NCBI RefSeq assembly: GCF_002775205.1
Contig: NC_036453.1
Span: 7,839,103-7,903,102, forward strand
Source of the DNA: Xiphophorus maculatus
Lineage: Eukaryota > Chordata > Actinopteri > Cyprinodontiformes > Poeciliidae
DNA: 64,000 nucleotides
Direction of reading: 5' to 3'
A program made the position numbers and the translations under genes. The notes beneath the pieces were generated by a model, which had not been told where the DNA came from, did no database searches, and saw only the letters and a list, made by a program, of their open reading frames with translations. Below, one piece after another: positions 13,361 to 61,079 of this stretch (positions are counted from its first letter, which is position 1; each line of letters opens with the position of its first letter).

Positions 13361-14975
13361 CTTACAGGTTTTGGGGGAGAAATTAAATCCAATACTGCAA
13401 CTGTTTGGATTTCCACTAAGCTGCTTTGTCCAGCAGAGGGCGCTCAAGGGCTCGTTTCATGTAGGCCAGATGCCTAAAATATATGTGCAAAGTTCATACA
13501 GAACGAGCACAATTACTGGATTAGGGATGTTATGTTGTGTATCAACGTTAAACTTTGTTCAGTTTGTAAGACTGGAGAGACATTTAAGATGCATTTAATA
13601 AATCTTAAGGAAAAAAAAAAAGATATTACATAACATTTAGCACTTCCTGCCCTGGGGAGGTTTAACCTGAATTATCAGAAAAGATTTTATCCAGTTCAGT
13701 TGCTATTAACTTTATTATAACATTTTTTTAAAACGGGTAATAGTCCACATGAGTATCAGCGTTATTTGTACTAAAGAGGATTTACGTCATCTCTATCGAA
13801 AATGACATAAACGATTTGTGTGTTTTGAGCACCACCTAGTGGCAGTGTTGAGCACTGCTCATGCCAGCAGCATTACACAACACACACCGTTATGTAATTT
13901 CAGTTTAAACCAGCCTGTGTTTCAGCGCTCAGGTTAGAAATAAAACACACACGTAACATCAAAATGTATAAGTTAACCAGACTACATTCATTTCTTCTAA
14001 ATGTGATTATTAATGTAGCACTATTTTAAACAGATGTTTTCACCAATTTCAGAGTTTTAAATCCACATTTTCTAATAAAGCAACAGAAATACCAGTCCAA
14101 CCAGATCATCTTTTTCATTCATTAGTGATTTATTTAATATTTAGAGAATTCAAACCATACTAAAGTCAAACAGGGGATGAGTCCCGACACATGGAGCTGA
14201 TGAACTGGCCTTCAGCGGCCCGCTGTGTGTTTGGGTTACAAAATGTTCAGTCATAAAGTCGGAGAATCACATGGAGAAATAACAGAATGAAGCCACCAGG
14301 CAGCCGAAGGGACGCCACAGTCGGTGCATAACCCTCAGCCAGTTCAATGCCCTACAAAGATAGATAGTGAATAAAAATCCCCATTTAAAATAAACTAAGA
14401 TAAGCCTGGTGGGGACAAATAGAGCCTGGTGGCCCACCAGGCTGGTGAAACACTGGAGAAAACCTGACTTCTGTCTACATCACTAGATCTAAGCAGGAAC
14501 ACACAGTTTCTGTATTTCTACATTTCTCTGGGCCGCTCTTGGCGCCGTTTCCCTGCCGGACCGAGCCAACCAGAAGCATGAGGCTGCAGACGGCTCCTAG
14601 GATCTCTGGGACACTCAAACCCCTCCACCACGATGAGGTGGCAGCCCCCGGAGGGGTAAAATGGAACCAGAAACAGTTTAACTGATCTGGGAGAGGCCTG
14701 AAGGTGGCGCTCTGGTGTTAGAACAGTGATGGTAGAGGAAGACCTGACAGTAGTAACTGGTGGAAAATGGCTGCCTTCAGCTTGGTTTCAGGTTCCTTTC
14801 ATTACAAACCGACATAAGAATTAAAAAGTTTTATTACCTTTGGGGTCAAACAGGACAATGAGTAATAGAACAATTCAAAAATACTTTGATCACAAAGGGA
14901 AATTAAATGCATCACCAGTCTATACAAATAATCGAATTGGTATGAACTGTTTACATTATTTCTTGTATTTTTTTT
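13361..14975. other. intergenic with CTCF-like motifs and GCCTGGTGG repeat words
   Basis: No gene. A CTCF-like CCAGCAGAGGGCGC lies at 13430-13443, and a CCACCTAGTGGC at about 13832. A GCCTGGTGGCCCACCAGGCT palindrome at about 14427 also occurs in variant form near 29.99 and 44.08 kb. Confidence 0.4.
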
Positions 14976-16415
14976 CTCCACCTGGTGTGGCGTTCTGATT
15001 GGCTGGTTCCTTCCTGGCGGAGGGCACCAGCTGGCATGATGCTGCCATCACCTAGCCGTTCTTCCTCTCCTGCTGTTAACTCTTCACTCCATGAATGTAG
15101 GAAGTTCTCCTGACCAGCTGACCTGTTGTGTCTCTGCTCTGTTTTCTCAGCTCCTTCTCGGCGGTGGTTTCAGATGGCTGCTGGTTCTGAGCCCGGTTCT
15201 GGTTCTGCTGGAGGTTTCTTCCTGTTAGAGGAGAGTTCTTCCTCTCCACTGTGGCTACATGCACGCTCCGTATGAGAAACTGATGTAAAGACAAGGACTC
15301 AACACAAGGGCGTAGCTGTGGCCCCCTGCTGGTCAGGAGGAATGAATGCTGTAAGTAATGACTTCATGCAGTCTGCTGGGTTTCCTTCAGTATAAACTCT
15401 AAACTGTTTTATTAACTGAACCCAATGCATAGATAACTTGGATCAACTGGAATTCATGATCAAATTGTAATGACTTCAAAATGCCTCGACAACATTGTAG
15501 TGAATCATCATTATTAATACAAATTTGAATAGACCTTTGTTATTTTACTGTTTAATATGCAGCTTTTGTTTTGTGTTGATTGTTGGGGGGTTTGTTTTGG
15601 TTGTTGGGGGGGGGGGTTTGTATTGGTTGTTGGGGGGGTTTGTGTTGATTGTTGGGGGGTTTGTATTGGTTGTTGGGGGGGTTTGTTTTGGTTGTTGGGG
15701 GGGTTTGTTTTGGTTGTTGGGGGGGTTTGTTTTGGTTGTTGGGGGGTTTGTATTGGTTGTTGGGGGGGTTTGTATTGGTTGTTGGGGGGGTTTGTTTTGG
15801 TTGTTGGGGGGGTTTGTTTTGGTTGTTGGGGGGGTTTGTATTGGTTTGGCACATTTGTTGGTTTAGGTGTTCAGTTTTATACAGCGCCAATTCACAACAA
15901 TTGTCTCAACGCACTTCGAAGTGAAATTTTTTTGTTCACATATATCCCAATTATAATTAGTACAATAAGTTAAATTAATTAAAACAGTTTAGAGTTTATA
16001 CTGAAGGAAACCCAGCAGACTGCATGAAGTCATTACTTACAGCATTCACTCCTCCTGACCAGCAGGGGGCCACAGCTACGCCCTTGTGTTGAGTCCTTGT
16101 CTTTACATCAGTTTCTCATACGGAGCGTGCATGTAGCCACAGTGGAGAGGAAGAACTCTCCTCTAACAGGAAGAAACCTTCAGCAGAACCAGAACCAGGC
16201 TCAGAACCAGCAGCCATCTGAAACCACCGCCGAGAAGGAGCTGAGAAAACAGAGCAGAGACACAACAGGTCAGCTGGTCAGGAGAACTTCCTACATTCAT
16301 GGAGTGAAGAGTTAACAGCAGGAGAGGAAGAACGGCTAGGTGATGGCAGCATCATGCCAGCTGGTGCCCTCCGCCAGGAAGGAACCAGCCAATCAGAACG
16401 CCACACCAGGTGGAG
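14976..16415. repeat. large inverted repeat, two 435-bp arms around a 570-bp loop
   Basis: The left arm 14976-15410 and right arm 15981-16415 have the same length and are near-identical in reverse complement. By eye only a handful of substitutions separate them, and in the embedded 219-bp frames (15076-15294 minus, 16097-16315 plus) two substitutions give one amino-acid change. Weaker similarity continues beyond the outer edges (ACATTATTT words). Each arm includes a fish repeat motif, CAGTGGAGAGGAAGAACTCT, and a CCAGCAGGGGGCCAC CTCF-like match. The loop carries a G-run minisatellite. Confidence 0.93.
15570..15847 (+). repeat. G-run minisatellite, 22-23-bp unit
   Basis: About twelve copies of a unit like TTGGTTGTTGGGGGGGTTTG, each with a run of six or more G. 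It lies in the loop of the large inverted repeat. All the open frames across it are by-products of the repetition. Runs of G separated by about 15 bases give G-quadruplex potential on the plus strand. Confidence 0.95.
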
Positions 16416-16674
16416 CTCCATTGGAGATAACAGCAAATAATGTAAAACAGAAAAGTGATCAGTTCATCCTCCAGTAACCTAAACCTACAGCAACATAACT
16501 ACAGAGGAAAACCTAAACCAGACTGAGCTTTTCCTTAATGCAATAACCATGAAACACTTTCTCAAGAACAAGAAACAAACATTTAACACTAAAACTGGAG
16601 GACATTTTAAATATCCAAAAGAATTTGATTTTTTAAGTCTTTGAACAAAACTGTCCTTAAGAAAAAAAAAAAAA

Positions 16675-17445
16675 TGTGATGAAGGCCTCTTCCCTCGGTC
16701 GATGGTGGAGCAATGAAGGGCCAAATCAGAGTCAAAATCAAGATCATCCAGGAGGATTCCTGAAGGACCACAAAATGGATACAGGTTTCAGGTCAAAACC
16801 TCTGCAACAGCTCAGTATAAATCACTTTTCAAAAAGTCATACTTGGAAATATTACTTAAAGAAAACTGGGAGAGTTTCAGTCAAAATGAATCAGGAGGAG
16901 TCTGCCTTACACTTGCAGGGTTTCCTCCAGAAAACCAACTGAACCCAACAGTAGAGTCACTAAGGTCATCCATCAGCGGGGGTGATGAAGGCCTTTTCAG
17001 TCAGTTGATGGTGGGGCGATGGAGAGGATTCCTGAAGGACAGAAAAACAGGGTGGATGCAGGTTTCAGGTCAAACCCTTTAACAGCTCAGAACAAAGTCA
17101 TCGCTTTTGAAAAACTCACTTTAAAATATTATTTAACAGCAAATACCTGCAGCTTTTCTTAGGTCATCAATCAGCGAAGTGGGACGAGGGGCCTCCTGCG
17201 GCGGTCGACGAGGGGCAACAAGGGCCAAGTCTGAGACGAAAACAAGATGATGCAGGAGATTCCTGAACAACAGGACAGAAAGACAACCAGATGGATGCAG
17301 GTTTCTGGTCAATGCCTTTAGCTGCGCAGAGTAAATAGTCATGTTTCAAAAACTCATACTTCTAAATATCACTAAAACAAATACCTGCAGCATTTCTTGG
17401 GTCATTATGGTCATCCATCAGTGGGGTGCAATGAAGGCCTTCTGC
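16675..17445 (-). repeat. degenerate tandem array of roughly 200-300-bp units
   Basis: Three to four diverged copies share, on the minus strand, a TTCAGGAATC start-like word, GGCCTTCAT, CTGATGGATGACC, and in two copies the donor-like GCTGCAGGTATTTG. Copies can be seen near 16690-16840, 16970-17090, 17150-17300 and 17390-17440. Frames differ between copies, so they do not behave as coding exon duplicates. Confidence 0.6.
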
Positions 17446-17567
17446 ATCCTTTGTTGTTGTGGGGGGGGCAGGGTCCTGTGGGTTTGTCTGAAGGACTTTT
17501 CCCTTATGTGTTGTTGGTCTAGTCAGTTTTTGTCGTCACACACACACACACGTTTTCTACACAAGCT

Positions 17568-17633
17568 TTTTACCCCGCCGCTCCTTTGCGCCCACACGCC
17601 TTTTACCCCGCCGCTCGTTTGCGCCCACACGCC
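17568..17633 (+). repeat. 33-bp direct duplication
   Basis: Two adjacent copies, one base different, each starting TTTTACCCCGCCGCTC and ending GCGCCCACACGCC, directly after a (CA)n tract. Confidence 0.85.
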
Positions 17634-17719
17634 TTTTACAATAAATTCCACATTTGTTCACAGACCAGAGAATCCCAGATTTGTTACGGTTGTTGTACCC
17701 GAGACCAGAATACCTACCT

Positions 17720-18010
17720 TTCATATAGATTACCAGATTTTCCTGCGTAGACTGTGGAATAGATCAACTGCTTTGTTGTACCTGTTACCAATTTTCTTTG
17801 AAATCCTCCAATGACTTCAAAGTCTTGAGGATTGGCTACAGGACGTAGCAAACCACATTTCCCACGGTTTGGTTCAGAGTCCAGTGCCATAGTGGCCTTC
17901 TTGATGTCCACAGGATCTTCAGTCTTCATGTCGACAAAAACTTGTTTGGCTTTTATATCTTCTTGCTCAGATTGTATTGACAACGCCTTAAATTCTGAAC
18001 CATGAGCTTG
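17720..18010 (-). other. unassigned minus-strand open reading frame
   Basis: An open frame of about 90 codons reads without an ATG near its start. It includes DIKAKQVFVDMKTEDPVDIK and GLLRPVANPQDFEVIGG. Composition is protein-like, and it lies downstream of the 19.4-kb candidate on the same strand. No phase-consistent splice link could be built and no family is recognised. It may be an exon of an unknown gene, a pseudogene or a transposon remnant. Confidence 0.2.
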
Positions 18011-18045
18011 AAACTATTATTACTATAGACAAACTGAGGATGCAC

Positions 18046-18270
18046 ATGGTGACAGTGGAGAGGAAAAACTTCCCTTTAACAGGAAGACTTCCCTAATGAG
18101 AAAAAAAAGATCACTACACCAATTATTTTAATTGGTTAAAAGTTATATAAGCTTAGGCAGTGCCTCATAATGAAGATGTATGTACTGACAGTGGAGAGGA
18201 AAACTTCCCTTTAACAGGAACTAACCTCCAGCAGAACCAGAAGGTGGTTCTGAAAGGCCATCTGTCATGA
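18046..18270. repeat. two copies of a common fish repeat motif
   Basis: ACAGTGGAGAGGAAAA followed by CTTCCCTTTAACAGGA occurs twice (about 18051 and 18187). The second copy continues into CCTCCAGCAGAACCAGAA. The same core lies in both arms of the 15-16-kb inverted repeat. Confidence 0.6.
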
Positions 18271-19356
18271 CCCCCGGGGGAATAGAAAGGACAGAGCAGA
18301 GAGAGAGAAAGAAAGAGCTGCTGCAGGAGTATTTCTATATTGGAGAAAATAAAGCGTTAGTTGCAGTAGAAGCTCCTTTTGTGGCTTTATCAGAGAAAAT
18401 AGTTAGGTGCAACACAATGTATGCTGGTATGTTAGTCTAGGAGAGAAACTGGGTTAAAAACTGACTAAAAACTCTTAGACAGGTCCCACTGGCTCTCTAG
18501 AAGGAAAACTGTTAATTTAATCTGAAAACCTGCAAATGAGAGGGTGGATTAGACAGTGAATATTACTTCTGTGACCTCTGACCTCCAGCAGATCTCTGTT
18601 GATCTCCGTCTTGCAGAAGAAATGAAATTGTTGTCCAGAAGAAATGAAGTCATCGTCCAGAAGAAATGAAATCACAAGAGGCCACGAGTTTGACGCAAAG
18701 ACAACCGGTTGTCATGTTTAAGTTGTTGGACGTAAATAAAATTTGTTTGAGTTAAATTATTTAAGTATGGACCCTATTTCTGAATACTTACATTAAGTTT
18801 CAAACTAAGTATTAAGTACATGCAAAAAATAATAAAGGTATGTATATTGAAATGTAAAAGACCTCATTTCCACCCAAAAACATGTGGTATTCATCTAAAA
18901 GACAAATATCTTATGCAGCTATAATAAATGGCAACATAGAAACATGGAATTATCACCAATAATGTGTAGGTATGGTATCAAGGATTATTATAGTGATATT
19001 TACTTGATCTAACTCAATGACTTCCTGCAGCCTCTATACTGTATTCTCCAAAACCTTGGCAGCCATCTTTCTTTTAAGGCAATTCCGATTTTTAACCATG
19101 AACTTCAGATTCCAACATGCTAATTACACCTAAACCTCCACAGGTCAACATGACCACAACCAAGACTTAAGGCTTTTAAACAGCAGAATCCTTCCCAGCT
19201 CATCGACTCTCAGCGGAGAATCAAACCAAACCAGCATCAGGCCTAGCGTTGGCCTTCAACAGCGTTAGCATCAGCAGCTAGCATCAAACCCGCAGCAGCT
19301 CCTACCCTGAGATGTCTTCTGGACCCGCCATCGAACAGTTGCTTGACTTAACCAAC
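18271..19356. other. non-coding, short GAAGAAATGAA triplication
   Basis: No gene supported. Three near-tandem GTCCAGAAGAAATGAA-like words occur at about 18615-18672. Confidence 0.4.
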
Positions 19357-19700
19357 CTTTGATGGGTCGGGCGGATCCCCCAGGCAGCTTGAAGCGATCC
19401 TCAGCCTGCTTGTAAATCCTCTTAACATCCATGATCGATTTGCTGCTAGTTCCAGACGCCATTGTTTTCCTCCACAGATATTTCAGGGACGCCATCAGCC
19501 AAACAAACCGCCTGAGACGCCAAGGTCGGCTCACTCTTCATCTGCTGCTCGGTTCTGCCACAAAAATGGCTTCAATAACTTAATCAGGAGCAACACAAAT
19601 AACTCAGTGTAAGGATTCCAAAAATTTACTTACCGAGTAACAACGCAGCTTTTTCCAACATGGCGCTCCCGCGGCCTGCTCGCCCACTCTAGCCGATCCT
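19357..19700 (-). CDS. weak candidate gene start on the minus strand (fragmentary)
   Basis: On the minus strand a short exon-like piece ends in a strong donor at 19628-19633 (CTCG followed by GTAAGT). A second piece, after a GTGGCAG acceptor, contains an ATG at 19462. From it runs a 35-residue reading frame (MASGTSSKS..., then DVKRIYKQAEDRFKLPGG and SARPIK) ending at a possible GTTGGT donor (19351-19356). The ATG at 19661 in the first piece would hit a stop soon after splicing, so it would be an upstream ORF. I do not recognise the peptide and could not find convincing downstream exons. The CpG-rich flank supports a promoter here. It may be a real gene, a pseudogene or a repeat-borne frame. 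Confidence 0.25.
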
Positions 19701-20030
19701 CAGCAGGTGAGTTTAGTCGCCAGTTTATTAGGCCTCAGGCAACACAAACCATTCCAGTTGGATTGGTTTGTGTTGCCAAACCAATTGGAAAAAGTTTTGC
19801 GTAATTTAGGCTATGCATTAAGAACGACGCGCGTCTTGGGAGAGCAGAAAAGATCATTTTTAAATCCGGGTTCCAGAGTTCATGAATATCACACCGCCAG
19901 CTCGATGTCTCCGGCTGCCAGGTACGAGCCGCGCCGTCTTTTGTCTTTCAAACAATTAACGTCGAAGCTGCGCCATATTTATATCCAGTATGGCGCATGC
20001 GCCTCACGCTCATAAAAGACAAACATGGCG
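19640..20030. promoter_or_regulatory. CpG-rich promoter-like patch with NRF1-type motif
   Basis: Locally raised CpG content stands out from the AT-rich surroundings. The patch includes ATGGCGC words typical of YY1-type promoter motifs and a GCGCATGCGC NRF1-like palindrome at about 19993-20002. It could drive the weak minus-strand candidate at 19.36-19.66 kb. Downstream (20.04 kb on) a dispersed repeat begins. Confidence 0.4.
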
Positions 20031-21499
20031 CTGTTCGACAGGGTTGCCAGATCTGACAATTTCCAGTTCAATGGTAAAACCTGGCCAACTGCAAAAACAG
20101 CCCAAATCTCAAACCCTAATAAAGCTAGTGAAAATAGCAGTTTATCCCCAATATAGTTTTAGAATAATTTAGGGAAATAGTGACATTTATATATATTTTT
20201 TATAATGTAAGACTGAAGACACGTTTCAAGCTTTGAAAATGTACATTTTAGTAAGAACAACAATTTATCTCTAATGCAGTTTTAGAATAGTTTAGAGAAA
20301 CAGTGAAATTTTATATTTCACATATATATAACTTATACTGCTACTCCAGTCCTCCACTCCTAAACAACTTATGAAATAATTGTGTAAATGTGTAAGTGAC
20401 TTATTAAAACTCTCCACTCATTCTGTCAGAACAATAAGGTCGAGTCTAGTCAGAGGTTTTCACTTTTTAGTTTTAAATCAAGATTAGTTATTTTCTAAGA
20501 AAGCAACAGGACAAGAAATGACACAACAGTCCAACCAGATCATCTTTATTATTCATCTTTTGCTTCATTTTACATTTAGAAAATTCAAATCACACAAAAG
20601 TTTTCTGTCCAGATAGTAAATGTATTTATTTTTAATGATGGACAAAATTATACCAAATTCTGCAAGCTGTTGATTGGCAGGACAGAGTTTTACATTTTGT
20701 CACCTTACTGGCAGGAATATTAAATCTTTATTTTTAATTATATTTTTTCAATGAAATGAAGATACAAGGAGCTTAAAATATATTTTAAAATAGAAACAAG
20801 ATGCAAAGTTTGAACTTATTGCTACTTTTCCAAACAGGCTGAAATGTAGAAAGGACACAGATACAAACGTTTAATTTAATGTTTAATTTACTTCTTTACA
20901 GAGACCTTACTGGTCCCATTTACCATGCAGGCTTTTTTACCTTTTTGAATTTGAGCTCAAAAAATCTTTATTTTTTATTCCCATTAACATTTATTCTGTT
21001 TTTGTCTTTTTTGTCATTATTAAATATTTCATAAAACAAAATTGAACAAACAAAAACCTTAGTTATTTGTGAGAAAAGGTACCCAAAACATCCTGAAATC
21101 ACGTTTCTAAAACCTTGTTCATGCCACAACCTATTGAATAGTTTTAAGCCCAGACTTTGACTAGGCCAATCCAGAACCCTCCATCTGGCTGATTTCAGAT
21201 ATAAATTACATGCATTTACTCAGGTTCTGTTAAATATTAAAACTTGTGGCAAAAAAGCACAACCTATATCCTGTATTACACTTTTTTACTTAATCATATT
21301 TTTTTGCCAGATTTTTTCCATTAATTTCAGAAATATTTTGGTTTGTTTTTTTTAGTAAACACGGGATAAAAAATAAATCTTTTCCTCCACATTTGTGTTA
21401 ACAGCCTTACTAATATTGACAATTTATGTAAATATATACATTCTATTCCTGAAAACCACTTTATGTTGCTCAGCACAAATAAAATTAGATTGACTGATC
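20031..21499. other. intergenic, old dispersed repeats
   Basis: It begins with GGTTGCCAGATCTGACAATT, a word frequent in fish repeats. The rest is AT-rich with no gene supported. Confidence 0.35.
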
Positions 21500-22760: not shown

Positions 22761-25700
22761 TTAGTCGATGTACTGGGACAGCCAGCGGAAGCCCTCGCCG
22801 TAGCCCTGCCTCTTCAACACGCTGCACATGAAAACCTCCAGCGGTCTCGTGTTCAGCTCCTTCATGGGAACGTTGCCCTGGAGACCAAAAAAGGTCAAAA
22901 CAGTTCAGTTTTTATCTGATGGAGAGCTAAACATTAGGAATTAATTACTGATCTATTGATTATTCTGACAAATTTTTAAAATTGACTAACCACTTTAGCC
23001 GTTTTTATTCATTAGAAATACCTACTATAAAAAAATACTCATTTGTTTAGTTTTAATAAAGGTGTACAGATTTATCAGAGGCGATTTCCTTACTTTTAGA
23101 TCAGCTCATAATCTGTGGGTGAATTTTTGTTTTTATATTATCAGAAAAATTGAATCATCAGATAGAAAATCGTCTCACAGCCACGCTGGGTTCTGCTTTC
23201 ACAGCGGCGTTAGCTACACTTTCTACAGTTTTGGTTTAATTACTATTCTAATTAGCTAATTATCAGAATATTCAATCATTTATGAAATCATTCTTTCAAT
23301 AATTGATTCATTGTGATTAATCCCATTAAGTATTAAAATTATGTTTTATTTTCGCTTTTCTTTGCATTGTAGACTGAACACAAACTCATCTTTGTAGTTT
23401 TAAATTTTACCTCATAAACCTTAAACATTAGTATAATAGTAAACATTTTAACACTGAACTTTTAGTTCATGAGTTTTCTTATTTTTCTTTGTTTTACTTA
23501 GTTGATCAATATCAGCTTTGTTAAAGAGCTGAAGAAGTTTGTTAATAAATTCTTTTATTTTGGAGAGAAGTTGTTGATGTTTAATATGAATATATCTGTA
23601 AATTCACTCCGTCTATTGTTCTAGATCTCTCCAGGCAGGTTTTCATGAAACAACTGAGAGCTGATTGGCTGTTATTTCCTGATAATCAGCCGATGATGGA
23701 TAAAAGAGGTTCAACAACAAATGGAGTCCAATAGAAAATTTTTATCTGATATGACTTTTTCCATTCTCACATTTCCATATTTGAAAAACCTGAATCCAAA
23801 TTCAAAAACATTTCCAGACTGTAAAAAAAAAAAGACGGATGATTTTGTTCCTCTTTTATTCGTGTCAGTCTTTGAGTTATTTTATCTTTTTATTTGTTTC
23901 TTGAACCAGAAAGCAGATCGTTTGCTCCGTTTCCTCACCTTGCCTGTCGTCTGTCCGTATAATCCAAAACATTCGCGCAGCTTCTCCTCGCTCACAGCTT
24001 CAGGCCTGTCGATTTTGTTGCCAAGGATTAAGATAGGCACATTTCCGATGGTCTCGTCTGTCATTAACGCCTAGAAAAGTGGATAAAAAAGAGCTGTAGT
24101 TATAGATCACTGAAACAGTAAATGTGAGATTAAATCCCAATCCCAGCAAAAAGCATAATATAAAATATTTAATCTGTAAAATCTAGTAGAAATCCAACAA
24201 TGTTTTTACTAATGTTTTTTATGTTTTGTAAATATGTTGTTAAAGTATTTTATAGATGAATATTACCTTTATCCAAATTCTGCCCCAGTTTTTAACAAAA
24301 TAATTCAAAGGAAATCCACAGAAAAGCTGAAAGCTCAGAAGTTTGATGATATATAAAAGTTATTGCTATCGGTGATACAGACCCTGTATTTACATATGCA
24401 GAATCAAACTCCTCGACTGGCAAAGAGCTCAGAAATGGCAGAAAGCTGAATGTTTTCATTCCCACATTAACCTTTCTATCTGTGCTGGAGAAAGACTTTG
24501 TGTCACATGTGCAGAAATTTTCCCAAACCGAAACGAGAAACCTGAAATATTCACCTTTCTGTCACAAACTATTCCATCACTAAAAGCAGCCGACACTCAC
24601 ATCAAGTTCTGCTTTAGATTCAGCCATTCTCTGGAGGTCTGCACAGTCCACGATGAAGACGATCCCGTTAATGGCAGGGAGGTAGGTTTTCCACACTCTC
24701 CGGGCTGCAGAGGCAAAAAATAACCAACTTGTCAAGTAAATTGAAGATGAAAATAAAGAAAATCTCAATTTATGTATAGACCCGCTCGCTGCATGTTATA
24801 GTTTACAAATGGAAATTTTGATCATGTGCTCAACGCTGGGGGGCAAAAAGACGATTCTTTTCCATCCACAGCAGCACTGCAGCAAAGTGAAAATAACGCA
24901 GAAAAAGTGCTGAAGCATAACTCAAAACCACTTTTATTCTGGCTACACAAAGACTTGTTGCCATAGCAACAGACAACCCCACCAATATATGAGGTTTCAA
25001 CACTAAAAAACACTCAAACATTTCCACACATAGAGCAGAACATTCAGTCAGTTAGTTTTATGTTTTCAGGCTCGACGTTTGTTTAATGATTATTAATAAT
25101 GATCGCTGTGGTACATTAGCTACCGCTGCTATCAGCTAAGCTAACACCGTGGTGGTAGATTAGCTACCGCTGCTATCAGCTAAGCTAACACCGTGGTGGT
25201 AGATTAGCTACTGCTGCTATTAGCTAAGCTAACACCGTGGTGGTAGATTAGCTACTGCTGCTATTAGCTAAGCTAACACCGTGGTGGTAGATTAGCTACC
25301 GCTGCTATTAGCTAAGCTAACACCGTAGTGGTAGATTAGCTACTGCTGCTATTAGCTAAGCTAACACCGTGGTGGTAGATTAGCTACCACTGCTATTAGC
25401 TAAGCTAACACCGTGGTGGTAGATTAGCTACCGCTGCTATTAGCTAAGCCAGCGTTTTCCAGCCCTGGTCCTCTAGACTCACTGCCCTGCATGTTTTAGG
25501 TATTTTCTTGCTTCAGTCCAGCTGATTTCAATTGATGACTGATTAACTGGTGTTTGTTGAACTGCAATCAGTTGATAGATTAGCTAATTTAAACACTTGC
25601 TCTACTTATGATCTGTCAGAGTTGGTATTTATGTCGCCTTTTTTAAAATTTTTAACTGAACTGAAAAACAGAATTCTGCAGCACATCAACATGTTAATTC

Positions 25701-43200: not shown

Positions 43201-46200
43201 GCTGATTGTTGTTTTTATCTTAAATGCAAAATATACAGATTTTTGTACGGTTTTGGATTTTGAATATTTTTATTTTTTTTAGTCTGCGTACTCCAGTTAA
43301 TAATTAATCGATTAATAAATTAGTTATTAAATTATGTCACTAATCGATTAATCGTTGCAGCCCGGCGGTTTGAGTCCATCTGCAGTTTTTATTGCCTCTG
43401 GGTTGGAAACATTCAGGTGTCTAACAGATGAAACCCCGTCTGCTGTTTTTGTTCCAGGAGATGTTGCAGGAAACGGCCCACAGGCACCAAACAGCTACAA
43501 TCACGTTGACAACAGAATGGGTACGGCTTCCTCTGGCTCCGACACAAACCACTTTCACATTTCACATTCGCCAAGTTACAGCAGGGAAACGTTCAGACAT
43601 TTTGTTGCTTTTGTCTAATCTTCATTACCATCGATTAAAAATACTTCTAGTAAAGAATAACTTGTTTTTGCATCTTCTCTGAAGTCAACCAGCTTTTCTA
43701 CAAAATAATTTATAATTTTATGAAATGACCAGATCCTTTATTTCTTAAACTGCTGTCCCAGTAGACACGGCCCAGCATCAGTTTGACGACATAACTCAGA
43801 AACGGCTGTAGATGGTGATAATACACAGATTAATGTGAGGCATAAGTGTGTTTTTTCCACTGCTTCTCAGGAATTAGACCTGTAAAAATAACAGCTTTAC
43901 CATAAATCGTCCCAGAGATTATTGCGATAAACAATAATTTTACTTTGAGACAATTTTCCAGTAAAATAATGGTAATGGCATAATAATGCAAGAACACATT
44001 CTCAAACATCAAACTTTAAATTCTCATCAGGATTTCCGCCAGAAACCAGCTGAGCCCGTTGGAAGGTGCAAATAAAGCCTGGTGGCCCGCCAGGCTCATG
44101 AAACTCTAATGAACCCTAGTCACTGGAACTGGAGGGAACTTTAAATATCCAAAATAAACAAAACAGAAACAGCAAATAAAATTAATTATAAAGTCTCAGT
44201 AAATAAAATTATCCTTCTAAAAGGTTTAGTTGCAACCAAAACAGACTGAAGAGAAAAGCCATAAATCAAATGGAGATTAATTTATTTATTTATGCTGTTA
44301 GTGGATTTATTGTGACAAGTCACTAATTCTCCTGGTCTAAATGTTTTTGTTGTTTACCTCAGCTGGTGCAGCTCAGCCGGGCCCGCCTGGTCGGCATTTG
44401 GGCCACTACCCGTCCCTGCCCCCCGGGTACCAGAACACCTTGGCGCCGCCTCCCTCCTCCCTTCACCCGGCGCTCCAAGCCGCCACGCAGCCGTACATTC
44501 AGGGACCTCAGCCGTACCAACAGGTGAGGGAACGTCGCCTCTCAGTCACAGATTCAGTTCATTTTCTCGCAGATCGGCTCTGAAAAGCTAAAAGTGCTGC
44601 TGTCAGCCAAGCTGAACATGGAGCATTTTTAAAAATCATTATTATTGTCTCTGTGAGGGAGCCAGGGGGCCTGTAGGCCAGGGAGCCTGTAGGCCAGGGA
44701 GCCTGTAGGCCAGGGGGCCTGGAGGCCAGGGGACCAGGGGGCCTGGAGGCCAGGGGACCAGGGGGCCTGGAGGCCAGGGGACCAGGGGGCCTGGAGGCCA
44801 GGGGACCAGGAGGCCTGGAGGCCAGGGAACCAGGGGGCCTGGAGGCCAGGGGACCAGGAGGCCTGGAGGCCAGGGGACCAGGAGGCCTGGAGGCCAGGGA
44901 ACCAGGGGGCTGGAATTGAGAAGCTCTGGATTAAAGTCTGAATTGTGACCTTGTTCCTCTAGACCTCCTCTCTAAATTACACGTATAACTTCCAAATTAA
45001 AAATAAGTTCAGATATCTAATTGGAACAGAAAGCAAGATGTGGTAAAAATACTTCATGACAAGTCATAATTTATTTAAGATGATCAGTAATTAATTGTAG
45101 ATATTTTGAATTAAAATCTTCATGCAACTGAATGGTAATTATGACTTCTTTTATAATAGTCAGAATATAATCAGAGATATCAAATATGTATTTTGTCTAG
45201 TCAAAAATATTTTAATTAAGTAATATTTCTAGTCAGAGTATTTTCTGATGTCTGGAAAGTGTGTTGAGGTTGGTTTTTATGTTAAAACTGCTTGCCATAC
45301 GAGGAATGTTTTAGTTTATAGTTTCACCGTCTCCCAGCAGCCTGGCGGTCCCGGTCCGGACCAGCTGAGCCCGTCGATGGCGGCCATGAGCCTGCAGTCC
45401 GGCACGCCGGAGGCTCTGAGAGTGGTCAACCTGCTGCAGGAGAGGAACCTGCTGCCGCCAGCGCCGGTCCCCGCCCCGACGCCCTGCCTCACCCAGGACC
45501 TGCAGAAGCTCAACTGCAGCCCAGAGTAAGGCGAGACGGACGGCATGCAGCACCTCCTGCGGTTACACCTTTGGCTCTGATTGCTCCGTTTGTTCCTCCA
45601 GGGTTTTCCGTTGCACGCTGACCAGCATCCCTCAGACCCAGTCTCTGCTGAATAAAGCCAAACTGCCGCTGGGCCTGCTGCTGCACCCCTTCAAAGACCT
45701 CTCGGTAACTCCCAGGTCGTTTCTGATGCTCAGTCTGGACTCGTTTCTGAGTCGTTTGGAGATGAAACTGGTTTCTCTACGTCATGTGAAACAGTTGGAA
45801 GAACAAGAGGCAGAGCATTGTTGCAAACTTCACCTTGTTGGCATTTAAAGTGGGGGGAAATATTTTGATTGTTATTCTAACCAGCCTGAATTTAGTCACT
45901 GCACTGCAAAAATACAAATATCCTTGGACAAAAATAACTTTTAACAAGATAAATGAGCTGGTTTTGGGTCAATAATTCCTTAATATTCATAAAATAATGC
46001 ACTTTAACTTTTTCCAATCACAAAACTACCGAAGCATTTTGAATTTAGTTTTACTTTATCAGGTATTTTAAAATAATTAAATTGTGTTTCTCTTACTTCT
46101 TTTCAGAAAATTTGTAAAATAAAATAATTGTTGAAATGTGAACAGTTATATGATTTTTACAAGATTAAATGAAACATGAAAGCTACAGCTGTAAATATTC

Positions 46201-50200: not shown

Positions 50201-53200
50201 CAGATTCTCGGCAGGGAGCGTTTATTACTACCCCTCCTATCACCATCAGCACAACCCGGCTCAGGTGGAGCGCTTCCAGAGGGATCTGAAGAGATACTTA
50301 ACGCGAAAAATCGGCTTTGAGGCCGTCATGAGAATACGATGCACCAAAGGCAAGCAAACCTCCCAGCTTTTTATTTCATTCTAGACTTTTAAAATCCCTA
50401 ATTTAGCTTAACGGCTGAAACAATTAACTAAATTAATGGTGATTATTGAAATCATCGTCAACCAATTAATTAATCAGTTTAGTAACTGGACTATCCAGAC
50501 CCCCCAAAAAAGAACAACATACTCAGAATAGTAATTAACTTTAAACTGTTTAAAAATTAATACATTTTGCATTTAAGATAAAAAAAACTGTAAATATGTC
50601 CTCAAATTATTTGGACTTATTTATTAATCCAAAAACAATCAACAGATTAATTGGCTGTAGTTTTTTAGCTGCATCTTCTGCTACATATGATCACATTTTT
50701 ATTATTCAGAAAAGTAGTTGAATTATTTGCTAATTTGCATCTTTTAATGCATCTCTAATGTGTAAAAATAGGCTTGTATGGTAAATGAAAAATGTGCAGA
50801 ATGTATAAGATAAGATAAATCTTTATCAGTTATTTATGATTAATCGATTACTAATCATTAGCTGCAGCCTGATTAGTTTAATCAGTAATTTTCTGCAGTG
50901 TAATTTGAGTTGTTTTGAACATTTTAAAGTGTAATTTTTCTGTTTTTCTTCTAGTTCATGTAAAGCACTCCCTTGTTGCTGTACAAATAAAGCTTCTTCT
51001 TCTTCTCCCTGCAGGATTGTCCATCCACACGTTCCACGGAAACTTCTTTGTGCGTTCCACGGACCTGCTGTCCCTCCCCAACGTCAACCCGGACGCCGGC
51101 TTCGCCGTCCAGATGTCCATCGAGGAAAACCTGGACGACATGCAGGTCGTCTCCTTCCAGGCTGCTCTGCTTTACACCTCCAGCAAAGGTTTGAGAACAA
51201 GCTCTTATTCTGAAAGTCAAACTCCAATTTTTTTCTTCCTGTTTTTATGAAACAAAATGTCTTCCCTTCACAGGAGAGAGGAGGATTCGGGTTCACACCA
51301 TGTGCCTCCCGGTGGTCAGTTCTCTGTCGGATGTGTTTGCTGGAGCCGACGTTCAGGCCGTCACTGGGCTGCTGGCCTGCATGGGTACGCACTCCTCCAA
51401 GCTGCGCAGACTCTGATGTCACGATATTATTCCCCTTCTCTGAATCCGCCACAGATATCCACACCCTTCATGCAACAAACCGTTTAATTATTATTTTATC
51501 TACATTAACTAGACATAAAGCAGTTCATTAAGACAGTGTTTGGCCACCAGGGGGCGCTCGAGAGCCTCCAAGTTGAAGGGAAGTAAATTTTTAAATCTTA
51601 ATATTTATACAAAAGATAAATGTGTCTGGTCTTCCATCATTATCCTAAATGTAAGTTAAAATAATTTATCAAAGGTGCAGATAGAAGACAGAAATAACTC
51701 TTATTGTCTGACAAGAAATTTAGGGAAAAAGTTTTGATCCTCAAACTGGAAACAGAAAAGTTTCTGACAAGAAAAAGAAAGAAGGAACCATCCAGCTGTG
51801 GAGGACTCGGCTGCAAAAAACTATTTTAAATCAAATTTGATGGCATTAATATAAAAATATAACTGTATGGTTTTTTTATCAAGAGGGGATGTGGTGGAAA
51901 TTTGTATCTAATATATTCAACATCAGATTAATAACATTTATAATATTTACCTGATCAAATATTTGCACTAGAAAACTCATTGCAAACTAAAATCAAAAGA
52001 TATAAAGCAACAGTTATGCTAAATCAATATAGTAATTATTGAATAGTAAATAAAAGTGAGAATAAAAATGTAAACCTGAATGTGTCTTTACATGTTTTGT
52101 TGGCTGAGTGGCATCGAATCAGCTGTTGCTGCTGCACTATGACTGAAACACAGACAGACTGTCTGTCTGTCGACGTCTGTCTGTCCCTGTCAGATCAACT
52201 TAGTAGATGTTGCAGCTTCTGTTAGCAGAACAAGCTAACCGTTTAAAAACTTTCTATTTATCCAGTTATGGCGTCACAATTACTCACCAGATCAAACTGG
52301 GATGAGACTCAAGAAGAAATAAAATAATTTAATTAAAAAGAAATTCAGAGGAGGGTAGACCATAGTTACTACCGAACTCTGAAGAAATCCTGTTCTCTGG
52401 AAACTCGATGGAAAAGTGTTGCGTTTCATAGAAACCACCGGTCTGTGTCTGTTTCCAGCTGTGGATCGCTCTGTGACATCCAGCCTGAGCGACGCCAGAG
52501 ACGCCATGACCAACGCCGCCATCGACTCGCTGTCGTCGTACCGGCAGTCTGCGCTGACCATCCAGCAGCCCGGCCTGCTGGCGCCGGCCTGCCTGCGCCT
52601 CTTCCCGCTCTACATCCTGGCTCTGCTCAAACAGGTACTGCCTCTGCTTCCATCGCAGCTCTGTAGTGTTGGTACCAAGAGTCACGTTTCAGAACCTCCA
52701 ACATTAGAAGAAGTGATTTTTCTTTGTCTGGCCAGAGATGAAGTGTCGATTTGTTCCTTATGCAGCTCACCTTTACTGAAACATTTGGATTTGTTAGATT
52801 GTGGATTAGATCCATTTTAAGTGAAACACAAAAGAACCGAGTTCCTCTGTAGCTTCACCTGAACATTTGGTTTGGATACATCCACCTGTACGTTTCTGTG
52901 TTCATACAAGTTTACATATCTACGTAATCTGGTTCACTTCAAGCAGCCTCAGAAGGTAAAACGCATAAAAACTCCCAATGCGATAAATTACGTCAATTAA
53001 AAGTGATTAAGGCAATTAATCAGGAAATTTAAGCACGCTAATGTTACATAAGAGATTAATCGAATCACCTGTCTTGACCTAAAAGCCTTTCTGCTGTGAG
53101 AAAACTTGCATTCAGCTTCTATGCTCCGTGAATCTGGAACAAACTTCCAAAAAACTGTAAACAGCTGAAACACTGACTTCCTTTACATCCAGGGTAAAAC

Positions 53201-55792
53201 CAGCTGGCCAGAGTTGATTTAAAACATAATCAATGAACCAATCAACATTTTGATGCCACTCTTCCAAATATAATGTTTGTTCATTTGTTGACTGTTTGCT
53301 GTTTTCTTTAGAAGTTTGTAGTTTTGTGTTTTTATGATTTAAGCAGCTTGAACCGCCTGAAATCTGCTATGGAAATCAAACCTGGTTGATCTGTAATATT
53401 GACCTGTTTTGTGTTTTTGTGTGTTCCCTGCAGAAAGCCTTCAGAACCGGAACCAGCACCCGGCTGGATGAGCGAGTGTTCGCCATGTACCAGCTGAAGT
53501 ACCAGCCGCTGGCGTTCGCCATGCTGATGATCCACCCGGCTCTGTACCGCCTGGACGACCTGAGCGACGAGGTGCGGCTCAGGAAGCCAGAACCATCTTT
53601 AACTGGCTGCGTTTCTTTATTTTCACCTGGTTTCCCGTCGTCCTCAGGGAGCGCTGAACATCAACGAGCGGACCATCCCCCAGCCCAGAGTTCTGCAGCT
53701 GTCGGTGGAGAAGCTCAGCAGGGAGGGAGCGTTCCTCATGGACGCTGGGCTGGTGCGTTTGGAGGGAAGGGAAACGTTCCTGTTAACAAGGTCAAAACGG
53801 TAACGCTTGTGTCTTTAATCCAGGTGATGTATCTTTGGATCGGACGAAACTGCCACCAAAACTTCCTCTCTCAAGTCCTGGGAGTTTCCAGCTACGCTGC
53901 CGTTCCAGAGAAGCTGGTAGGAAAAACTCTGCAACGAAATGTAAAGATAACGAATCTACATTTAATAAGGACAGCGGCAGGGTTACTGCACTGCAAAAAC
54001 ACTAATATTACCATGTAATTTTGTTTGTAGAGAAAATATCTGTAAATACATTTGAAATAAGATGAAAGTAACTTACCAGCAACTATTCAGCAAGAAATAT
54101 TAACTTGATTTAAGTCAATAAATCCTTAATATTGATTTAAAAAGTTTTAGTTCCACTGGCAGATTATTTTACTCAACATTTTCCATGTTGTAAGTGAAAT
54201 AATCTGCCAGTGGAACTAAAACTTTTTACATCAGTGTTAAGGATTTATTGACTTAAATCAAGTTAATATTTCTTGCTGAATAGTTGCTGTTAGTTTTGCA
54301 CTAAGATATTTGTTCTACAAACTAAACGATAAATATCTGGTCAAGTTTTCCAGCTATTGGAAAAAGAAAAGTGTAGTAAAATAATTCTTTATCTCGATGT
54401 TTTAACAGTTTAAAGTTCTCCTCCTTCCCACCAATCCTTCTCTTTTCAGTCTCCTTACTTTCTGTCCTTCCTTCATTCTTCCCTTCATCTTTTCTTTCCT
54501 TTCTTTCTGTTTTACTGGGCTCTGCCGTCACTTTTCTCCTTTCACATCTCGTCATTTCACCTTTCTCTCTGCTTTTCATTTCCTCTTTCCTTCCTTGTGT
54601 CCTCCTCTGTTTCCTTCCATCAGTTCATCCATGTTTTCCTCCTTTTTATTCGTTCCTTTCTTTAGTTTCTCGAACACTAAAACCTGCCTGGTGTAGAGAT
54701 GTTTTCTAAAACCCAGAGGGATCTCTGGGTCTCTGGCAGATTTAAAACCAAGCGTTTCCTGTTTTAGCCGACTCACTAGGCTGATGCTGTAACTCGGTTG
54801 TATCTTTTTATTTGTATTATTTTAAACGGCCTGTTGTTTCCTCTGCAGTGTCTCCTTCCAGAGCTGGACACTGCAGAGTCCCAGAGAACCAGAGCGTTGG
54901 TCAGCTGGCTCAGGGACCAGCGGCCGTTCTTCCCCTCCCTCCACATCATCAGGTGGGTTTTGTTTTAAAATGATTGAAACCAAACCATCTGTTTTTATTA
55001 ATAAAGTCGTGGATCTCTGTTGTTCAAACTGCTATAAACTCTACAGTTATTGGGGAAAACTTTGACTAGACACAGTCCCAGTCAGACATTTTAGGCATGA
55101 ATTTTAAAACTTTTTAGTTTTTTTAAAAGTCTTTAGCTAGGGTGAAATTAAAAATACAACTTCAATCAGTTTTAAAAATAGAAACTGGCTTTTAAATGTA
55201 TGAATTTCACACAGAATTATACATAAGACTCAAAACTAAACTCAGCATTCCCACTGATATTTGGTTAGAAAATATCTTAGATGCCATAAATAAATAAACG
55301 CTGGAGAAAATATTTATGGTCTGACAAAAGATGAATCTGTTTGATGGAAAACAAAGTGTCAAATGTCCAAAATGGGGTAAAAACTGGACTTCTAATCAAA
55401 GTTGGCCATTATATTTTAGTTTGCCAAGTCCCTGCTGTAGAAAATAGAAAACCATAACAAGATTTTGATAACGGTGATATCAGCTAATAGTGAATTTGTA
55501 TTATTTTTATCTCCAAAGTGTAATGCTTGAATGTTATGGTATAAAAAGTATAAGAATTCACAGGAATAGAAAGTATCTTGTCCCTAAAATAAAAGCTTGA
55601 TAGCTGCACTCTGAACGTTTGTTGGGTAAAAGCAGCATTGAGCAGGAATTTTCCTGTTGTGTTAATTTTCTGCTCAGGGACGAGAGCCAGCTGAAGCCTC
55701 ACTTCATGCAGAACATGATCGAAGACCGGACGGAGTCAGCTCTGTCCTACTACGAGTTCCTGCTCCACCTGCAGCAGCAGATCTCCAAATAA
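34279..55792 (+). CDS. sec24a: Sec24 COPII cargo adaptor, 23 coding exons, 1080 aa
   Basis: Sec24 pairs with Sec23 on Sar1-GTP at ER exit sites and binds cargo sorting signals. Coding exons: 34279-34339, 38338-38835, 41314-41451, 43458-43520, 44363-44523, 45338-45525, 45602-45704, 46366-46492, 46619-46728, 47432-47544, 47719-47837, 47915-47970, 48615-48821, 49926-50049, 50191-50349, 51015-51188, 51274-51384, 52459-52634, 53434-53571, 53648-53752, 53824-53916, 54849-54952, 55678-55792. Summed length is 3243 nt, in phase throughout. The N-terminal ~300 residues are Pro/Gln/Gly-rich and disordered. YPSLPPGYQNT is shared with human SEC24A. The zinc finger uses Cys417, Cys420, Cys438 and Cys441. 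It is followed by the trunk, beta-sandwich, helical and gelsolin-like domains, ending near EDRTESALSYYEFLLHLQQQ. Human SEC24A is of similar length (~1093). Two introns use GC donors (after 46728 and 50349). SEC24B is less likely given sar1b and camlg as neighbours. Confidence 0.95.
37083..37620. mobile_element. CTGCAAC-ended, ATTAATCGAT-rich element in sec24a intron 1
   Basis: It runs from about GGGACTGAAACGATTAATC to GTTGCAGCCCTA. Related elements or fragments in the same gene lie at 35.80-36.04, 39.19-39.64, 42.64-43.36, 43.90-44.33 and 50.41-50.87 kb. Probably a non-autonomous hAT-like family. Confidence 0.6.
37697..38230. mobile_element. palindromic MITE in sec24a intron 1
   Basis: The halves are inverted copies: ATTTTCTACCTCAGC / AAGGTCTAAAAATCA on the left against TGATTTTTAGACCTT / GCTGAGGTAGAAAAG on the right. 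CTCTGCAG and CAACTCAGC also mirror. It ends about 100 bases before coding exon 2. Confidence 0.65.
39187..39640. mobile_element. ATTAATCGAT-rich element in sec24a intron 2
   Basis: Shares GATTAATCGATTATTATAAT, TTTAAATATCCAAAATAAAT and ATGTGATTAATTGATTTATT words with the other family copies. The ends have diverged. Confidence 0.5.
39821..39893 (+). repeat. (CA)n microsatellite, interrupted
   Basis: Two CA tracts separated by CGCCTACACAAACCC-like sequence, in sec24a intron 2. Confidence 0.9.
41629..41850 (+). mobile_element. hAT-like fragment in sec24a intron 3
   Basis: AGAGTTGGGTAGTAAC and the following TTACTTGAGTAAC words match the 12.85-kb element. The right end is missing. Confidence 0.6.
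42352..42444 (+). CDS. sec24a: possible in-frame cassette exon of sec24a (31 aa)
   Basis: Between coding exons 3 and 4 lies a 93-nt stretch that would read G-QLSPGGLPAAPGPPLSPTPRK in the required phase 1-1. It is preceded by a long pyrimidine tract ending CGAG and followed by CCAG-GTCATG. A shorter version could start at the downstream gccag acceptor (42382). The Pro/Ala/Ser-rich composition fits the Sec24 N-terminal tail. The CGAG acceptor is unusual, so it may be an alternative exon or chance. It was not counted in the 1080-aa product. Confidence 0.4.
42639..43363. mobile_element. CTGCAAC-ended element in sec24a intron 3
   Basis: The clearest copy of the family, with GGGCTGCAACG at the left and CGTTGCAGCCC at the right as inverted ends. 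It ends 95 bases before coding exon 4. No clean target duplication is seen. Confidence 0.7.
44661..44910 (+). repeat. GC-rich minisatellite in sec24a intron 5
   Basis: About ten copies of a unit like CCAGGGGGCCTGGAGG plus CCAGGGGA, starting with variants containing CCTGTAGG. Confidence 0.93.
47181..47240. repeat. TA tract with mirrored flanks (perfect palindrome)
   Basis: TAATTAATTAGTG, then a TA run, then CACTAATTAACTAATTA: a self-complementary stretch in sec24a intron 9, able to extrude a cruciform. Confidence 0.85.
48912..49692 (+). repeat. dispersed element in sec24a intron 13, copy B
   Basis: Counterpart of 24785-25970 with one minisatellite unit. No terminal repeats or target duplications could be read and no coding capacity is seen. 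The element type is unknown. Confidence 0.8.
50405..50875. mobile_element. ATTAATCGAT-rich element in sec24a intron 15
   Basis: It runs from GGCTGAAACAATTAAC to ATTAGCTGCAGCC, matching the family ends seen at 37 and 42.6 kb. It sits inside the GC-AG intron 15. Confidence 0.55.
53984..54345. mobile_element. palindromic MITE in sec24a intron 21
   Basis: Two long inverted halves: CAGCAACTATTCAGCAAGAA and GTCAATAAATCCTTAATATT on the left mirror TTCTTGCTGAATAGTTGCTG and TAAGGATTTATTGAC on the right, meeting near 54180. The outer words CTGCAAAAACACTAAT / TTTGCACTAAGATATTTG suggest complete ends. A single-arm relative lies at about 45900-46015. Confidence 0.75.
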
Positions 55793-59014: not shown

Positions 59015-61079
59015 ATGGTTGCTGCAGCTGCAACTTTGGTTATTTTCTGTTTCTTCCACTTTGGATTTATTTTAGGTAAGAATTTATGATTGTTGTGTCG
59101 TGTTTAGTGCTTCATTATTTTGGTGTGGATTTCTCCCTTGTAATCTAATTTTTAAGAGATATAAGATTTATTTTTCATAATGTATTTTGCCAAATAATAC
59201 CGAAAGCAGTATTTCCATGTGGTGGTGGTGGGGGGGTTTGAACATTTTATTTTTCCATTTTGTGTAAAGGTTGTGATTTTTAAGAGGGCTTTATTTTCTT
59301 TTTTTTTTAAGCCTCTTATCTTTCTGATCTGTTCTCATCTTTTTGGCCACATGAAGTTTTTTGGCAAACGAACCTCATCTGAACGCAAATTTACACTTTA
59401 ATAAATAATATCCACCAAGATATTCATTATTACGAACCACGGAGGACCCTAAACTGAAGGTAATTAACCTAAGGTTTCTGCGCTTCGCGTGGTGGTCCCG
59501 TTATGGCAGGCAGTTTTAAGATAAAATCGGTTGCGTCCGACTATTCGTAATTACAGTGGTAATTACAATATAGATATCTAAAAAAGCATTTTGATTAGAC
59601 AAAACTACAATAAAAGTTAATCTCTAACGTAATTTGTCATATTTACGTTCGAGATATCTAAAATTGTAATTACGAATGTGTCCCATTAAATAAGTCATTT
59701 GGGATGTTTTGAAAGGAATTTTGACTCGTCCAAATATAAGTAAAGATATCTTGAAGTATTATTCTTACTAGTCAGAATGTAAAGACGGATATCTATAATT
59801 AACATTCCAGTTAGTCAAAATGCATTTGTAGATGTCTACAATGTAATTACTGTTAGTCAGACGAAACCGAATTTATATTAAAACGGCCTGCCATACAGGG
59901 CTGCGTTTTTTTTTTTTTTTTTTTTTTTTTGCGTTTGTTTCCTTGTGCGTTAGGAGACAAATGACCCGGTCTAACACTTTAATTCTATTGGCTGAGAGGT
60001 TGAGCTATGAGAGGTCATGTTGTGACTAAGTTGTGACTTTTGGATCTGTGGTTTCCTCTGAGCAGAGACGAGACCAGAACGGCAGGAGAAAGGTTTGAGA
60101 AAGTCCAGTGAATATTTGAAAGAGCAGAAGTTTGGAGTACAAGTATCGCAAGTTTTGAGAAGAAGGACAGTCCTGCTTTCAAGCTGAAAATGTGTGCTCT
60201 GGACTTACGGCAGTAAAATGTCCTCATATAATCAGCCAACAGTTTTAACATCTGAAGGGTCCAAAAATGCAAAGAAAAGCCATTTGAAGGATGAAACCTT
60301 TCAAATGCTTAAACGTTTGTTAAAAAATGATCGGATATTTTCTGTTATTTAAATGCCTGCTACAGTTTTAAACATTTTGTCGACCAAAAACACCCGAGCA
60401 GTTCCTCTTTAACTCTCTGCTCTGTGTTTTTCCTTCCTGCAGCTCAGAAAAACATCAGAGCTGAAACTGGGCAGGTTGTGATTCTGCTGTGCAAAACGCC
60501 TGACAACAATCCTGCCATAGTCATCGAGTGGAGGAGAAATGGTTCGGTACCAGAATACCTGCTTCTGTTCAGAGACGATCAGCTGGATCCAGAAAACCAG
60601 CAGCCGTCTTTTAGGAACCGAGTGGATCTGCTGTTCAGGCCGATAAAAGACGGAAACGCGTCTTTGGTCCTGAAGAACGTGACGACTGATGATGAGGGAA
60701 CGTACGAATGTCGAGTTATTGAGAGAAACCCAAACTGGGGAAAGAGAGCCGGTCTAACAGCTGAACCAGTCAGCATCATCAACCTGGACGTTGTTCCTCC
60801 TGGTGAGTCTTCATGTCACAGCAAAGATCCTGCTGCTGTTTCCTGTTAGCAGAGAAGATGTGGCTGCAGGAGAAATGTTTTGGTTCTTCATCCATCTCCA
60901 GTCTAACAGCTGATCCATGTTTCTGATCTGCAGGCCAAAAAGACAAGCAAGAAGAAAACCATGACAGCCATGGAGGACGTGATGCTCTGATCGGTGTGGC
61001 TGTCCTTGTAGCTGCAGCAGCTGCTGCAGCTGGAGGAAAATTAAAAATGGAGCTGAATGTGCAGAGGAACATCAGATGA
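59015..61079 (+). CDS. small membrane-anchored single V-set immunoglobulin protein (188 aa)
   Basis: Three coding exons: 59015-59075, 60443-60802 and 60934-61079. Phases are 1-1, borders are GT-AG, and the total is 567 nt with a TGA stop. Exon 1 encodes a typical signal peptide (MVAAAATLVIFCFFHFGFIL). Exon 2 encodes one Ig V-set domain with Cys37, Trp50, the DDEGTYEC motif (Asp103-Cys110) and probable N-glycosylation sites at Asn53, Asn92 and Asn99. Exon 3 encodes a hydrophilic stalk, a hydrophobic Ala-rich segment (158-175) suited to one membrane pass, and a short basic tail of about 13 residues without an ITIM or ITAM. This resembles the many fish butyrophilin/B7-like or CAR-like receptors, but no specific orthologue is recognised. 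A MITE sits in intron 1. A cell-surface recognition role is inferred from architecture only. Confidence 0.85.
59497..59902. mobile_element. MITE in intron 1 of the Ig gene
   Basis: The ends CGTTATGGCAGGCAGTTTTAA and TTAAAACGGCCTGCCATAC are inverted partners with few mismatches. The interior has repeated GTAATTAC/GATATCTA words. No coding capacity. A (T)n run of more than 20 follows just outside, at about 59906. Confidence 0.65.

Follow-up and report, generated by a model that had tools for sequence, protein, structure and literature searches.

How do the two arms of an inverted repeat come to be almost identical? This question is raised by a palindrome in a 64,000-nt stretch of the Xiphophorus maculatus genome (contig positions 7839103-7903102; hereafter the window). 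The initial annotation had named three explanations: a very recent inverted duplication, an assembly foldback, and an older element whose core is homogenised by arm-to-arm conversion. We compared the window with other loci of the same repeat family, which were fetched from the same genome (704-Mb assembly, 101 contigs) and are referred to by L-numbers where they need to be told apart.

A near-identical inverted repeat with diverged outer ends

The long, near-identical arms around a loop, which had been noticed at the outset, are real: each arm measures 436 bp, a loop of 568 nt lies between them, and they differ at three sites only (left-arm positions 15194, 15211, and 15342; 99.3% identity). 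An inverted repeat so long and so exact is not to be explained by chance. Weaker similarity past the arms had also been described, and we recovered it as a 17-nt pair (14950-14966/16430-16446) that is 88% complementary. In an alignment, the two sides of the window just beyond the arm core are 46% alike over the outer 45 columns and 61%, then 53%, alike over the inner columns. In several other copies, the inverted repeat extends through the outer stretch that flanks the window arms. The features of the locus are summarised in Table 1.

Table 1. Parts of the palindrome and of the surrounding repeat, in window positions
Feature	Position	Strand	Remarks
Shell A of the larger repeat	14288-14720	+	common to many copies
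Outer end of the ancestral left arm	14950-14975	+	diverged from partner
Left (A) arm of the palindrome	14976-15411	+	436 bp; related arms genome-wide
~80-bp arm core, present outside the arms too	15197-15276	+	mirrored at 16115-16194; relative at 18157-18242
Loop	15412-15979	.	568 nt; rich in T (42%; G 31%)
Loop minisatellite, 12.5 copies of a 22-bp unit	15570-15846	+	twelve G6-G11 runs, 15 nt apart
Right (B) arm, inverted	15980-16415	-	436 bp; mismatched with the left arm at 3 sites
Outer end of the ancestral right arm	16416-16446	-	diverged from partner
Shell B, degenerate ~250-bp tandem repeats	16677-17400	+	common to many copies
Distal body of the larger repeat	17630-20312	+	collinear with other copies

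The ~80-bp core occurs without the rest of the arm near the repeat in the window, L012, L016, L018, L020, and others. We take it to resemble a conserved fish repeat motif; as letters, it was not found in the papers searched.

The palindrome as a module of a dispersed repeat

Searched with the left arm, the genome returned 974 first-look candidates, the best 40 of which were scored, and all 40 matched. Thirty of these 40 rows form 15 plus/minus pairs, with spacings from a few hundred bases up to about 1.8 kb, and 22 of the 23 loci fetched from this search have an inverted repeat of their own. Searching with an arm of L014 yielded 1261 first-look candidates, and again the best 40 were scored. 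Rows were dropped for L013 (a single arm), L051 (a pair already contained in L026), and L053 (unpaired), as well as for L036, L042, and L045 (clipped); L036 and L042 are covered again by L052 and L056.

The copies share the order of their parts, namely shell, arm, minisatellite loop, inverted arm, and tandem-repeat shell, and sequence outside both arms is common to multiple loci. Collinearity over shell A, palindrome, tandem repeats, and distal body amounts to ~6 kb in the window and to ~9 kb between L016 and L018. Judged from these alignments, the inverted repeat forms the palindromic module of a larger repeat, dispersed and apparently non-coding, which would occupy about 14288-20312 of the window. 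The ends of this repeat were not found by comparing copies, and its limits vary between them. No target-site duplication was seen by eye in the arm flanks that were compared. The arms do not form the termini, as they would in a foldback element with long terminal inverted repeats: shared repeat sequence continues beyond both arms. In L019, L026, and L028, local multiplication has affected the palindrome or single arms, which alternate in direction over ~2-4 kb. The family was not recognised in the literature searched, which is no proof of its absence there.

A distal-body search (window 18649-19709) returned 83 candidates. Among the best 40 of these, which were scored, no match covering more than 450 query bases was above 76% identity, and shorter pieces reached up to 87% over 247 bases. 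Ten copies were chosen by their distal match, not by their arms, and a 3.6-kb upstream stretch was fetched for each. Both arms were present in five of them (two clipped), one arm in one (clipped), and none in four, in which the palindrome may lie beyond the 3.6-kb stretch or be absent.

The loop and its minisatellite

A tandem array is present in all 25 loops examined, with units of ~7 to 34 bp and a sequence that varies by copy; where longer periods were reported, they look like multiples or compounds of such units, and the array of L011 comprises 30 bases only. For the window loop, about twelve G6-G7 repeats had been announced. We indeed counted twelve runs (three G6, eight G7, and one G11), with 15 nt between each. 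Among the 25 loops, that of the window alone has long G-runs throughout (12 runs of at least G5 versus 0-3 in the others). What appears in the window as a G-run array is its particular form of the minisatellite present in all 25 loops. Little is left of the suggestion that the loop is prone to form quadruplexes: it contains no canonical motif (G3+ with 1-7 nt spacers), its runs being 15 nt apart, and three matches appear once spacers of up to 15 nt are allowed. Mean GC content is 49% in the arms and 29% in the loops of the 25 copies, and 38% in the window.

Coding content and neighbouring features

None of the element frames submitted to Pfam gave a match above cut-off; the few weak matches (E 0.019-0.1) stayed below the cut-offs. 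Among the matches listed, translated similarity between copies is found in all six frames and runs across stops, and the repeat body therefore looks non-coding. Nothing in the window reached gathering scores in Rfam.

Part of the distal body, 19162-19405, is better conserved (85-87% in four of the nine copies aligned there). On the minus strand, the conserved stretch 19162-19640 carries an ATG-led frame at 19358-19462 and, farther out, a splice-donor-like GTAAGT. This frame, with its ATG at 19462, resembles an exon and was rejected as such because its relatives carry stops and indels; the stretch 19162-19640 could be the remnant of a captured or former gene. A PRY-SPRY frame (L034 1071-1493, minus strand) lies beside the L018 copy of the repeat. 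The link to an NLR-like gene was dropped, as this frame and two neighbours matched one locus only among the loci compared.

Elsewhere in the window, a minus-strand frame at 10852-11496 matches ALKBH8_N in Pfam and may be part of a LINE-type element. Two plus-strand frames match the Sec23/Sec24 helical domain (52416-52820 and 53386-54018, the second below the curated cut-off), and a Sec23/24-like gene may lie there. Further observations are an immunoglobulin V-set frame at 60424-60849 (plus strand), a clean 44-bp tandem array of 7.8 copies at 25108-25449, and a GC-rich 24-bp array of 10.8 copies at 44657-44914.

The two arms of a copy evolve together

Across 25 copies, divergence between the two arms of one copy ranges from 0.2 to 24% (median 7.4%). 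Arms taken from different copies are ~15% apart, and side makes little difference (A-A 15.8%, B-B 14.8%, A-B 15.4%). The partner is the closest of all arms in 13 of these 25 copies, the window included, and not so in the rest. Measured against the family consensus, the window arms have 52 changes in common and 3 unshared. At clear-majority sites, the arms have diverged from this consensus by ~10% and the non-arm parts of the window by 7-12%. The non-arm parts have thus drifted about as far as the arms, and the arms are therefore synchronised rather than slow.

We then consider the arm tree of 39 pairs. Sister arms from one copy were recovered for 16 of them, or for 16 of 38 once a duplicate pair is set aside; in the remaining 22 of 38 copies the arms are not sisters. 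No other sister pair has a stem as long as that of the window (0.124), whose tips measure 0.002 and 0.005. Placing all 38 left arms in one clade gave a tree that was rejected (p-AU 2.5e-5; log-likelihood 1130 lower). There is a weak left/right signal: the observed value was reached by 13 of 400 permutations over all 25 copies, by 13 of 400 for the 15 copies with arms >5% apart, and by 362 of 400 for the 10 closer copies. The sister and clade tests, like the tract test described below, were devised after the data had been seen. Taken together, the arms show concerted evolution, changing together within many copies while the copies drift apart. Of the copies examined, that of the window belongs to those homogenised most recently.

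As a possible sign of GC-biased conversion, changes shared by both arms lean more to GC than unshared changes do, with 197:205 versus 241:396 (odds ratio 1.58, p 5e-4; the copies are not independent). The non-arm parts of the window lean to GC too, less strongly (96:76 versus 39:25 over both arms, as sums).

Within the 25 copies, the nearest other arm to the window arms is 15% away. The best 40 of 974 arm candidates and the best 40 of 83 distal candidates contained no close sibling of the window copy. The 15% distance, together with long distal matches that do not exceed 76%, makes it unlikely that the window copy was inserted very recently from a source that survives.

Identity tracts and the timing of homogenisation

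A weighted run test was used to ask whether identity within a copy falls into clusters more than the variability of the columns would lead one to expect. Untrimmed, clustered identity was found in 13 of 36 copies (2 skipped). After trimming of 60 columns at either end, a step chosen after the untrimmed result had been seen, it was found at p<0.01 in 9 of 31 copies versus 0 of 34 between-copy control pairs; the control pairs exceed most own-arm pairs in divergence, so that power is unequal and the contrast imperfectly matched. The trimmed test skipped 7 of 38 copies (<5 mismatches or >12 gaps) and likewise 4 of 38 control pairs. The tract-positive copies include some that are locally multiplied (L019, L026) or in which one arm is split (L038). 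The window arms have too few mismatches for this test, and the tract result refers to other members of the family. A significant tract is absent from 22 of 31 copies. Since this is so, and since the arms are not sisters in 22 of 38 copies, conversion would be intermittent or patchy, or would have stopped in many copies.

The tracts bear on an alternative that we regard as unlikely, yet as the most serious one, namely that arms are homogenised at transposition: if one arm served as template for the other in the transposition intermediate, every new copy would begin with identical arms that diverge later. Own-arm sisters would be expected under this explanation as well, and the copies without a tract fit it. 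So do the related copies L016, L018, and L020, whose core arms are 0.7-3.1% apart with bodies mostly 92-96% alike. It predicts, however, that differences are evenly spread along the arms, and whole-arm copying at transposition would leave no tracts such as those seen here in contrast to the controls; the identity tracts therefore favour conversion. Moreover, a close sibling or source would be expected for copies with near-identical arms, but for the window, L009, and L025 none lies within 11% among the 25 copies.

How the arms are kept alike

With good confidence, we consider it most likely that the window contains the palindrome module of an old dispersed repeat whose arms are kept alike by in-place arm-to-arm gene conversion. 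The idea of an older element with a core homogenised in this way is supported by distances, shared changes, tree, and tracts. The window arms are probably near-identical because each copied the other, as would have happened in related copies to varying degrees. As the shared anatomy shows, the repeat spread to many chromosomes with the palindrome already in place. After insertion, non-reciprocal gene conversion would most likely have acted between the arms, as tracts and divergence suggest; this in-place timing is what we infer from the comparison of one genome. A broken or stalled arm was perhaps repaired from its inverted partner, either by folding back or via the sister chromatid. The loop and the outer arm ends escape homogenisation and drift, and the loop minisatellite is seen to vary from copy to copy.

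A wider reading is conceivable, although we hold it to be less likely than not: the dispersed family of short internal palindromes might represent many independent conversion machines, with dozens of copies ranging from freshly homogenised to fully diverged and a different minisatellite in the loop of each. Repeated foldback repair might then have both turnover of the loop and conversion of the arms as its outcomes.

Selection on an RNA hairpin, in place of conversion, is very improbable as the force that keeps the arms alike. Any transcript would fold into a long hairpin, but such selection poorly predicts ~15% drift between copies together with near base-for-base agreement within them, nor does it well predict tract-like identity, and Rfam is silent at gathering scores in the window. 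A recent inverted duplication at the window locus could be argued from the 99.3% arm identity taken alone. We give it hardly any credit, as the same palindrome occurs with the same shells and surroundings at many loci and divergence is far greater at the outer arm ends than in the core. Long reads can generate inverted copies and could so produce an assembly foldback, an explanation that is very improbable in view of the asymmetric 568-nt loop and flanks, which are collinear with other copies, the three mismatches, and the graded arm identity over many loci.

Comparison with known systems

Helitrons and Helentrons are marked by a Rep-helicase partner, a 3' hairpin, and an A/T target. No ends, terminal hairpin, or Rep/helicase were identified in the window repeat, which is unlike them in this respect. 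It resembles them as a dispersed element of an often non-coding kind, and a Helitron is reported from platyfish (PMC4021074).

Arm-to-arm conversion is best known from a few large sex-chromosome palindromes. Primate X palindromes are described, in parts of one study, as having inverted arms kept alike by intrachromosomal conversion (PMC8981503), and arm-to-arm conversion between inverted arms is what the present case probably has in common with them. As portrayed there, they are large and sex-chromosomal, with arms >99% alike, whereas the arms here are ~0.44 kb long, apparently non-coding, and spread over many contigs. Related short palindromes on many chromosomes of one genome amount to dozens of natural replicates, from which the rate, bias, tract length, and decay of conversion could be determined in relation to arm identity and to the length of the loop. 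They also call for caution when a long inverted repeat is dated, as the divergence of its arms need not reflect the time of insertion.

The foldback-like elements Galileo and Tetris of Drosophila, as far as the relevant passages go, resemble the family in their dispersed copies, long inverted repeats, and tandem repeats. For Tetris, the TIR-220 repeats are reported to group together in two of three complete elements, with possible homogenisation (PMC4079207), and recombination and conversion are proposed for Galileo (PMC3573991; passages also in PMC4168063). Arm-to-arm conversion is therefore a known process, given the within-element grouping in Tetris and the conversion proposed for both. Unlike foldback transposons, the present repeat yielded no transposase domain in the element frames and no visible target-site duplication. 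In contrast to the terminal repeats of Galileo and Tetris in these accounts, the inverted repeat is internal here, and the shells on both sides belong to the repeat. The family adds a well-replicated further case in which the palindrome is internal rather than terminal.
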